Shown here: piece after piece, positions 1,948 to 31,966 of the stretch
How positions within the stretch are numbered: the stretch's first letter is position 1
Layout: each line of letters starts with the position of its first letter
From: Gammaproteobacteria bacterium
GTDB lineage: Bacteria > Pseudomonadota > Gammaproteobacteria > SZUA-229
Reading direction: 5' to 3'
DNA length: 42,811 bases
Assembly (NCBI GenBank): GCA_029882355.1
Contig: JAOUKV010000025.1
Location: 1 to 42,811 of the forward strand
Program-made: the position numbers and the translations under genes
Notes under the pieces: generated by a model
Told to the model about the DNA's origin: nothing
The model's database searches: none
Seen by the model: the letters and a program-made list of their open reading frames with translations, nothing else

Positions 1948-1961
1948 TGCCATATTTGGCA
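1948..1961. promoter_or_regulatory. Palindromic activator site 1 (TGCCA-N4-TGGCA)
   Basis: This is a perfect inverted repeat of five bases around a 4-base spacer (TATT). It lies about 150 bases upstream of the expected sqr transcription start, the usual range for an enhancer-binding protein, and 35 bases upstream of the regulator ATG, so it could also serve autoregulation. A near-copy lies exactly 31 bases further right. Binding by the neighbouring FisR-like protein is inferred. Confidence 0.65.
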
Positions 1962-1978
1962 AAGTGAAATGAGAAGAC

Positions 1979-1992
1979 TGTCATAAATGGCA
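1979..1992. promoter_or_regulatory. Palindromic activator site 2 (TGTCA-N4-TGGCA)
   Basis: This is a second copy of the site at 1948-1961 with a single change in the left arm (TGTCA for TGCCA) and an AT-only spacer. The 31-base period corresponds to about three turns of B-DNA, so two activator dimers would sit on the same face. It is centred about 120 bases upstream of the predicted sqr start. Confidence 0.6.
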
Positions 1993-2079
1993 GTATAGTA
2001 GTGCTTCTAACGGTAATAAAGGTCGTGAATAAGGCGTACCAGTAAATAAGTCATTGTTTTTATTCCAATTGTATGAGGC

Positions 2080-2095
2080 TGGCCTGAACATTGCT
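2080..2095 (+). promoter_or_regulatory. Sigma-54 (-24/-12) promoter of sqr
   Basis: TGGCCTG, four bases, then TTGCT gives the GG-N10-GC core of the RpoN consensus (TGGCACG-N4-TTGCW), with the element preceded by C as in the consensus YTGG. Transcription should start near 2106, about 30 bases before the sqr ATG at 2137. The position downstream of two palindromes and next to a sigma-54 activator gene supports it. Confidence 0.8.
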
Positions 2096-2136: not shown

Positions 2137-3408
2137 ATGGCACATATCGTCATAGTTGGAGCGGGTGTAGGGGGATTGCCTTGCGCTTATGAAATGAGAG
2201 AAACGCTGAGTAAGGATCATCAGGTCACCATAATTAATGAGCGAGATCATTTTCAGTTTACGCCCTCGAATCCATGGGTGGCTGTTGGTTCACGTACGCA
2301 AAAGGATATATCGGTTCCACTTTCGCCAGTACTCGCCAAGAAGAAGATTAATTTTATTCAGGACAGCGTGACTAAAATTGATGCTGAAAATAACATACTG
2401 CAGTTAAAGGAAGGTAATGCGGTTAATTATGATTATCTAGTTATTACCACTGGCCCACGCCTCGCTTTTGAAGAAGTGCCAGGTTCTGGGCCAGATGGTT
2501 TCACCTCATCTATTTGTACTACAGAGCATTCAGTTACCGCTTTAGATGCCTATAACAAGTTATTAGAAAACCCTGGCCCTGTGGTTATTGGGGCTATGCC
2601 TTTTGCCAGCTGTTTTGGCCCAGCCTATGAATTTGTATTTATTCTGGATTGTTTTTTACGTAAAAAGAAAATGCGCAATAAAATACCTATTACATTTGTA
2701 ACTTCGGAACCGTATATCGGACATTTAGGTTTAGGAGGTGTGGGAGACTCCAGAGGTATGCTGGAAAGCGATTTACGTAATCACAACATCAAATTTATTA
2801 CTAATGCAAAAACAACAAAAGTTGAAGATGGCATGATGTTTGTTGATGAATTAGATGATGCTGGTGAAGTTAAAAAGCAACATGAACTACCATTTAATTA
2901 TTCAATGATGTTGCCAGCATTCAAAGGTGTAGATGCGGTAGCAGCCGTTGAAGGATTATGCAATCCACGTGGATTTGTTTTAATTGATGAATATCAACGT
3001 AATCCAAAATATCAAAATATTTATTCAGCAGGTGTCTGTGTTGCTATACCACCAGTAGAAGCTACGCCAGTGCCAACTGGAGCACCAAAAACAGGTTATA
3101 TGATTGAAACCATGGCTACTGCCATTGTGCACAATATTGCGCATGAACTGGCTGGCGAAGAACCAGAAACGTGTGGTACCTGGAATGCTATTTGTTTGGC
3201 TGATATGGGGGATACGGGTGCAGCGTTTGTTGCGCTACCACAAATTCCGCCACGTAATGTTACCTGGTTCAAGAAAGGTAAATGGGTGCATCAGGCGAAA
3301 ATTGGGTTTGAAAAATATTTCATACGCAAGATGAGAAAGGGTTACACAGACCCACTGTATGAGCGCTTTATTCTTAAAGTATTAGGTATAAATAAGCTAG
3401 AAAAGTAG
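2137..3408 (+). CDS. sqr: Sulfide:quinone oxidoreductase (type I)
   Basis: This is a 423-residue membrane-associated flavoprotein that oxidises sulfide to polysulfide sulfur and passes electrons to quinone. The FAD-binding motif GAGVGG lies at 8-13. Cys127, Cys159 and Cys353 match the three catalytic cysteines of type I enzymes such as those of Rhodobacter capsulatus and Acidithiobacillus. The C-terminal 40 residues are basic and amphipathic (about 377-415), as in the membrane-anchoring helices of the family. The start is the ATG at 2137, which has GAGG 9 bases upstream; an in-frame ATG at 2122 adds five residues but lacks a good ribosome site. Expression should depend on sigma-54 and the divergent FisR-like activator. 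Flavocytochrome c subunit is the main alternative, but the cysteine triad favours Sqr. Confidence 0.92.
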   Translation: MAHIVIVGAGVGGLPCAYEMRETLSKDHQVTIINERDHFQFTPSNPWVAVGSRTQKDISVPLSPVLAKKKINFIQDSVTKIDAENNILQLKEGNAVNYDYLVITTGPRLAFEEVPGSGPDGFTSSICTTEHSVTALDAYNKLLENPGPVVIGAMPFASCFGPAYEFVFILDCFLRKKKMRNKIPITFVTSEPYIGHLGLGGVGDSRGMLESDLRNHNIKFITNAKTTKVEDGMMFVDELDDAGEVKKQHELPFNYSMMLPAFKGVDAVAAVEGLCNPRGFVLIDEYQRNPKYQNIYSAGVCVAIPPVEATPVPTGAPKTGYMIETMATAIVHNIAHELAGEEPETCGTWNAICLADMGDTGAAFVALPQIPPRNVTWFKKGKWVHQAKIGFEKYFIRKMRKGYTDPLYERFILKVLGINKLEK

Positions 3409-30409: not shown

Positions 30410-31966
30410 TTAAGATTGTTTCAACTGAGTAGGCCGCAAGCCTGTCAGAAATAGTGTTGCAAAGTAAACCAGTATGGCCAGAGCAATGATGCCAGTAATG
30501 TGACTGATTCGATCAGGAATAGCCCATTCTGTCCATTGTGTTAATTCAGGAGTGATCAGTGAAATGACAAAGGCCATGGTGATACCGGCGATTGTAATCT
30601 GCGCAAACAACTTAACCCAGCCTTTAATAGGTCGAAATACGTCTGCTTTGCGTAATCCACGATAGAGCATAAAGGCGTTCAAATATGCCGAACAGCTGGT
30701 GGCCAGTGCCAGGCCGACGTGGGGGGCTTCATAGTTATACATCACCAGAGGTACGACGAATAAAACATTGAGGCCCATGTTGCTGATCATGGCGATGATA
30801 CCGATGCGTACCGGTGTTTTAGTATCCTGACGGGCATAGAAACCGGGCGCTAATATCTTGATCAGAATGAAAGCGGGCAGGCCAGCGATATAAGCCATCA
30901 GGCTCAGGCTGGCGAGATAGGTATCGGAGGATGTAAATTCACCATACTGAAATAATGATGCCAATACAGGTCCGGCGAGCATGAACAGGCCAATGCAGGC
31001 AGGTATGGCGATGATAAACACTAATCGTGTTGCCCAGTTCAATGTTTGATTGAACTCATCGGCTGAGTCACGGGCATGTTGTTTGGATAAGGCGGGCAAA
31101 ATCACGGTAGCGATGGCGATGCCAAATATACCGAGCGGAAACTCAAGCAGTCGATCTGAGTAGTACAACCAGCTGACACTGCCTGCGACCAGGAAAGAGG
31201 CGATAACGGTATCGAGTAATAAATTAATTTGAGCTACCGATGAACCAATGATGGCAGGTACCATCAGTTTAAGTATTTTTGTTACACCGTCATGATGATG
31301 CTTGAATTGAGGCCTTGGGATTAGGCCGAGTTGTTTCAGAAAAGGCAGCTGAAATAAAAATTGTAAAAAACCTGCCAGCGCCACGCCCCAGGCCAGTGCC
31401 ATCAATGGCTCTTCAAGCATAGGTGATAGCCAGAAGGCGGCGGCGATCATGCAGAGGTTAAGCAAGACCGGTGTGAAAGCCGGCACAGAAAACTGATTAA
31501 AGCTATTAAGAATGCCGCCAGCGAAGGCCACCAGTGAAATAAAGAAAAGATAAGAGAAAGTAATGCTCAGCATCTCAGCGGTCAGCTGGAAGCGGTCAGG
31601 GTCATCATGGAAGCCAGGTGCAAATAACCAGACCAGCGCTGGTGCTGCAACAGATCCGATGAGGGTGATCAATAACAGGATGCCGCCAAGTTTGCCGGCG
31701 ACATGGTTGATCAGGTCTTGCAGTTCTTTGCGACTGCGTTTTTCTTTGTATTCAGAAAAAACCGGTACAAATGATTGTGAGAAAGCGCCTTCTGCAAAAA
31801 GACGGCGCATAAAATTAGGGATTTTAAAGGCGACCAGAAAAGCATCGGTGCCACCACTGGCACCAAAAAGTGTTGCCAGCGTGATATCTCGCAGCAAACC
31901 GAAAATTCGTGAAAGCAGGGTCATGCTACCCACAACAAGTGAGGATTGCAGTAATTTGGCGCTCAG
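30410..31966 (-). CDS. murJ: Lipid II flippase MurJ, probable CTG start
   Basis: The product is about 518 residues with some 14 membrane helices (MATE/MVF fold). Conserved pieces include LLSRIFGLLRDI near the N-terminus and LRRLFAEGAFSQSFVPVF around residues 50-70. The first ATG or GTG in frame (31933) would cut off the usual MurJ N-terminus. Reading back to CTG 31966 restores SAKLLQSSLVVGSMTLLSR, which fits other MurJ proteins, and AAGGA (31975-31979) is placed 8 bases before that CTG. A six-codon reading frame starting at ATG 31984 ends in a TGA overlapping the CTG. It flips lipid II for peptidoglycan synthesis. Confidence 0.93.
   Translation of the reverse strand: MSAKLLQSSLVVGSMTLLSRIFGLLRDITLATLFGASGGTDAFLVAFKIPNFMRRLFAEGAFSQSFVPVFSEYKEKRSRKELQDLINHVAGKLGGILLLITLIGSVAAPALVWLFAPGFHDDPDRFQLTAEMLSITFSYLFFISLVAFAGGILNSFNQFSVPAFTPVLLNLCMIAAAFWLSPMLEEPLMALAWGVALAGFLQFLFQLPFLKQLGLIPRPQFKHHHDGVTKILKLMVPAIIGSSVAQINLLLDTVIASFLVAGSVSWLYYSDRLLEFPLGIFGIAIATVILPALSKQHARDSADEFNQTLNWATRLVFIIAIPACIGLFMLAGPVLASLFQYGEFTSSDTYLASLSLMAYIAGLPAFILIKILAPGFYARQDTKTPVRIGIIAMISNMGLNVLFVVPLVMYNYEAPHVGLALATSCSAYLNAFMLYRGLRKADVFRPIKGWVKLFAQITIAGITMAFVISLITPELTQWTEWAIPDRISHITGIIALAILVYFATLFLTGLRPTQLKQS

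Follow-up and report, generated by a model that had tools for sequence, protein, structure and literature searches.

Two short palindromes in front of sqr very probably form a paired upstream enhancer of a sigma-54 promoter, bound by the FisR-type activator encoded next to it. They lie in a 42,811-nucleotide contig (the window) from a gammaproteobacterium of the SZUA-229 lineage. The distal candidate site, TGCCATATTTGGCA (1948-1961), has arms that are a perfect inverted repeat; it is followed by the proximal candidate site, TGTCATAAATGGCA (1979-1992), and both are conserved at their aligned positions in relatives. The starts of the two sites are 31 bp apart, just as a first-pass annotation had described them. 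A sigma-54 -24/-12 element, TGGCCTGAACATTGCT, is found on the plus strand at 2080-2095 and has the form TGG-N10-GC with TTGC. Transcription is predicted to start near 2106, which puts the palindrome centres ~151 and ~120 bp upstream; the annotation had expected such a promoter before sqr, with the sites about 150 and 120 bases upstream of its start, and this holds. A sigma-70-like promoter was seen on neither strand between 1850 and 2200.

The regulator gene, fisR, occupies 591-1919 on the minus strand. Its likely start is the ATG at 1913, the TTG at 1919 giving the longest reading. The product has the domains expected of a FisR protein, a PAS domain, an AAA+ sigma-54 activation domain and a Fis-type helix-turn-helix (Pfam PAS_4, Sigma54_activat and HTH_8). 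It also has the three cysteines of such a sensor, Cys60, Cys71 and Cys78 in the numbering of the 442-residue reading (C-x10-C-x6-C), and these are present in all 68 regulators aligned, those of the window and of Cupriavidus metallidurans among them. The regulatory cysteines of the published FisR are said to be numbered 53, 64 and 71. As is typical of fisR, the gene stands beside a sulfide-oxidation gene: sqr, encoding sulfide:quinone oxidoreductase (SQR), is divergent from it at 2137-3408 on the plus strand. Although the frame is open from an ATG at 2122, the start was placed at 2137 on the strength of its ribosome-binding site and of where the proteins of relatives begin. The product matches the solved SQR 3sz0 with 565.7 bits, and its Cys127, Cys159 and Cys353 align with cysteines of 3sz0 that we take to be its residues 128, 160 and 356. 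Catalytic roles of these cysteines are described in PMC6335251. Judged by its sequence, the enzyme is an SQR. The genome has a sigma-54 gene (PF04552, one match, 226.7 bits). Downstream of fisR, at 1-453 on the minus strand, a frame that exits the window encodes a cysteine-rich protein with a twin-arginine-like leader and a histidine-rich stretch; a Pfam search with it gave no match, and we presume a resemblance to copper-storage four-helix proteins.

Relatives were collected in three protein searches. The first matched the regulator in 52 of 58 genomes at E 1e-60, many of the lower matches through the AAA+ domain alone; the second gave 21 loci, and the third matched 61 of 369 genomes at E 1e-95. 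Five of six same-genus genomes have the regulator at 84-86 % identity, and none at this level was found in the sixth (G003, 89 % complete). The window and 14 of the 21 loci, in which fisR and sqr are divergent and the gap is readable, make up a set of 15; left out were L039 (the contig ends), L046 (the regulator is cut) and L051-L055 (matches partial or distant, and sqr not close by). L006-L010 are from the same genomes as L035-L038 and L044. A first distant set comprises 21 of 32 loci, hand-picked for having a sigma-54-like element.

The motif emerges without being preset. When every 4-base inverted repeat with gaps of 0-14 upstream of the promoter was counted, the top dyads in the 15 divergent loci were GTCA-N4-TGAC and TGTC-N6-GACA, each in 11 of 15 (shuffles 0.04 and 0.08, respectively). 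In the 21 hand-picked distant loci they were GTCA-N4-TGAC in four (shuffles 0.03) and GCCA-N4-TGGC in five (shuffles 0.15). The 27 exact sites in the 36 loci of both sets have A or T at 101 of their 108 centre bases, and the site is therefore best written TGYCA-W4-TGRCA. The first-pass annotation had read TGYCA-N4-TGGCA as the binding motif of the adjacent regulator; conservation supports the assignment, and it is the wording of the motif that has to change. The window holds a C/G-drifted version, the distal site being the C/G version of TGYCA-W4-TGRCA. Among six same-genus species the 20 half-site columns have a mean identity of 0.85 versus 0.41 over 112 other columns, a difference reached in none of 20000 permutations.

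The sigma-54 element is unremarkable by itself, since the window contains two exact matches and 42 at up to one mismatch versus 30.8 in shuffles; what counts is its conservation across divergent loci. TGG-N10-GC is present before sqr in all 15 loci (the script took the last one), and in the six same-genus species the element is 0.89 identical. Within the genus the sequence is TGGCCTGA-C-TTGC, altered in L044; L045 and L048 depart from TTGC. A T-rich tract, ATTGTTTTTATTCC (2053-2066, plus strand), precedes the -24 element by a constant distance; its columns are 0.69 identical in the six species versus 0.39 on either side, and many of the 15 loci show it too. It may serve as a bend or as a contact for the alpha-CTD. 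Sigma-54 enhancers and promoters commonly, though not universally, have IHF or bent DNA between them; of this sort the conserved T-rich tract is what was noted here, no IHF site being established.

Spacing is conserved as well as sequence. Two sites with at most one mismatch each are 31 bp apart in 11 of the 15 loci and 32 bp apart in one more (L045), and 300 shuffled sets gave no pair at 30-32 bp. In L042 and L049 the partner at 31 bp has two mismatches, and in L044 the second good site lies at 22 bp. The distant locus L068 appears siteless in the spacing count, which stops at 190 bp, short of its pair; the pair is seen in the 31-locus count given below. Other spacings among the 15 loci come from extra sites (22 bp in three, 33 in two, 64 in two and 40 in one). 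In L035, L037, L038, L044, L041, L042 and L050 additional sites are seen near -110 or -67 relative to the -24 element, some in a 9-bp register with their neighbours. Distances from the two sites to the promoter are mostly 132/101, 131/100, 130/99 or 130/98; in L043, L048 and L049 they are 120/89 or 121/90, about one turn shorter: the two sites shift together by about one helical turn. The paired palindromes thus hold their helical phase, as in an enhancer of the NtrC type. In the glnA enhancer NtrC binds two palindromes that are separated by about three turns and placed 100-150 bp upstream of the sigma-54 promoter; the layout is shared, whereas motif, signal and regulator differ. The first-pass annotation had staked its proposal on relatives keeping the palindromes, and they do keep them, together with the 31-bp spacing and the -24/-12 element.

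Does the motif follow the regulator or its target? A second distant set of 31 loci was taken without selection for a promoter; it is the best-scoring part of the search at E 1e-95, loci being given for at most 30 matches, plus L012 and three named plasmid records, L062 being excluded because its sites repeat those of L045. An exact site is present in 11 of the 31 (shuffles 0.06; next 300 bp 0/31) and a site at up to one mismatch in 22 (shuffles 1.72, largest 5; next 300 bp 2/31). Pairs are 30-33 bp apart in nine loci, 20 bp in two and 57 bp in one; the 20-bp pairs, two turns instead of 31 bp, are those of L083 and L085. In nine of the 31 no site was found at up to one mismatch, including L012 and L080 despite their sigma-54-like element. 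Among the loci analysed, that of Cupriavidus metallidurans comes closest to the published FisR, and its best site carries one mismatch. A group of still more distant loci (39-44 % identity), counted without a shuffle control, has a site at up to one mismatch in 9 of 21 members and an exact one in three.

What these regulators face varies. In five of the 11 exact-site loci sqr is nearby on the side that the regulator faces, directly in L071, behind a Tll0287-like gene in L063, L072 and L074, and ~5 kb on in L060; sqr is also found further on at L064. The Tll0287-like gene (PF11845) faces the regulator in L063, L072, L074 and L084, with sqr next in the first three; L084 has no site. The other six exact-site loci are without a close sqr in the DNA read, which was 6 kb for L068, L082, L083 and L085, 3 kb for L058 and 1.4 kb for L067, where the contig ends. 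In the 6 kb of L085 the sole sqr match is at 22 %. Instead of sqr, L058 faces cytochrome bd, L067 a globin, L083 a dioxygenase-like protein (below the cut-off), to which the L085 counterpart is 72 % identical, and L082 another protein of the metallo-beta-lactamase fold. Judging from these six loci, the motif seems to accompany the regulator; this is a tendency, and part of the distant set still has sqr in reach.

This bears on an explanation in which the palindromes belong to some other regulator, a Crp/Fnr-type protein or another dimer that also controls sqr, and the neighbouring fisR is a coincidence. Many Crp/Fnr-type sites are indeed short inverted repeats around an N4 centre, the FisR locus L069 faces a Crp-family gene, and a facing-side sqr, sometimes behind another gene, is there in five of the 11 exact-site loci. 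We nevertheless consider it unlikely, because in the six loci without close sqr the site is still upstream of the regulator and because the pair lies at sigma-54 enhancer distance and in phase with the promoter. That distance and phase to the sqr promoter also speak against sites acting mainly on fisR, by autorepression or autoactivation, with sqr activated through some other sequence; the distal site is 34 bp before the likely fisR ATG, which would suit such a role, but as the main function it is improbable, more so than a foreign regulator. A dual role is conceivable, in which the sites would serve sqr and also the autoregulation that the first-pass annotation had allowed for. Binding by FisR at an enhancer of sqr is the reading that we follow from here.

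In the organism's own genome (2.88 Mb) exact TGYCA-N4-TGRCA occurs at 40 places, compared with eight for a reversed-pattern control, and the 31-bp pair is unique among them, the next closest two being 734 bp apart. Two of the other 38 places lie in reading frames of the window, at 1214 (in fisR) and at 31849. Outside the window there are 36, 34 of them within open frames of 80 codons or more and two not. A sigma-54-like element stands beside two of the 36, at 45 and 48 bp, both of these sites being inside frames; at 50 to ~260 bp none of the 36 has one, so that the enhancer layout is absent from them. The A/T-centre form has seven exact places, two of them here, and at up to one mismatch 56 places, mildly above the control's 38 (50 of the 56 were listed). 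Within the window, a scan of both strands for TGYCA-N4-TGGCA at up to one mismatch gave 20 matches, with a mean of 8.9 and a maximum of 19 in shuffles. Chance palindromes in AT-rich intergenic DNA, for which the 40 single sites and the 56 against 38 could be quoted, have a negligible probability in view of the conservation against shuffles, the unique 31-bp pair and the same-genus footprint. By its exact sites the element looks like a local enhancer with one target. One candidate for a wider regulon, a gene of the metallo-beta-lactamase fold (L096), was at first promising, since in other loci fisR faces dioxygenases with this fold; it was rejected, as the site falls within the part of the frame that encodes a leader peptide, and the product is closest to SoxH-related hydrolases (below the cut-off) with no significant match to the dioxygenases.

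From this arrangement the most likely mechanism can be proposed. Each TGYCA-W4-TGRCA site would bind one helix-turn-helix dimer of FisR, and the three helical turns between the sites would place two dimers on one face of the DNA, favouring assembly of the AAA+ hexamer. By analogy with the published FisR of Cupriavidus, sulfane sulfur arising from sulfide would modify the cysteine triad of the PAS region and thereby release the ATPase. The DNA would then loop, and the hexamer would open sigma-54 polymerase at 2080-2095, leading to transcription of sqr.

The founding study of FisR from Cupriavidus pinatubonensis JMP134 is reportedly that of Li et al. 2017; the literature searched, which excludes this study and with it any FisR site it may have, contained no FisR operator of this form. 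Control of sqr by FisR and sigma-54 is already published (PMC7315123, PMC9774590, PMC8469610). The FisR of C. pinatubonensis JMP134 is described there as a sigma-54 activator that senses reactive sulfur by three conserved cysteines and activates sulfide-oxidation genes (PMC9774590, PMC8469610, PMC7315123). The window regulator likewise has a three-cysteine PAS region and sqr as target; unlike in Cupriavidus, no pdo frame directly adjoins sqr. In Acinetobacter baumannii sulfide induces the sqr operon via FisR (PMC7315123), and divergent activator, predicted sigma-54 promoter and target are as in the window. According to the account in PMC7315123, that FisR lacks the regulatory cysteines, which the sequences aligned here keep; since it still responds to sulfide, the cysteine step is apparently not universal. 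The nearest published sulfur-oxidation sigma-54 site that we found is that of TspR from Acidithiobacillus caldus, a palindromic upstream activator sequence, TGTCCCAAATGGGACA, with the ends TGTC/GACA (PMC6335251). TspS/TspR also acts through sigma-54 on sulfur-oxidation genes, but TspR is a two-component response regulator, the targets are sox genes and the arms are longer. A word search of the main text of the Desulfovibrio sigma-54 regulome (PMC4641369) did not find the motif. The kind of element is known, and the predicted operator is a useful addition.

It is tempting to ask how far this operator reaches. Five distant loci face cytochrome bd (L012, L057, in which the gene was named by eye, L058, L061 and L080); an exact site was found in one of them and a one-mismatch site in another, the remaining three having none, which makes them the weakest group. 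FisR-type regulators facing cytochrome bd suggest that respiration under sulfide is governed by the same kind of sensor. A single operator code, TGYCA-W4-TGRCA pairs three and sometimes two turns apart, might even serve all sigma-54 activators with the cysteine-triad PAS region and mark, at their promoters, the genes for SQR, persulfide-dioxygenase-like proteins, globins and perhaps cytochrome bd as members of a single reactive-sulfur regulon that could be read from sequence; this is a tentative extension, to which we give slightly less than an even chance. With the palindrome pair, FisR-type sulfur sensors have a predicted DNA operator that can be put to the test. It would make the reactive-sulfur regulon readable from genomes, those of uncultured gammaproteobacteria included, and it points to genes for respiration and for haem proteins that may be targets too.
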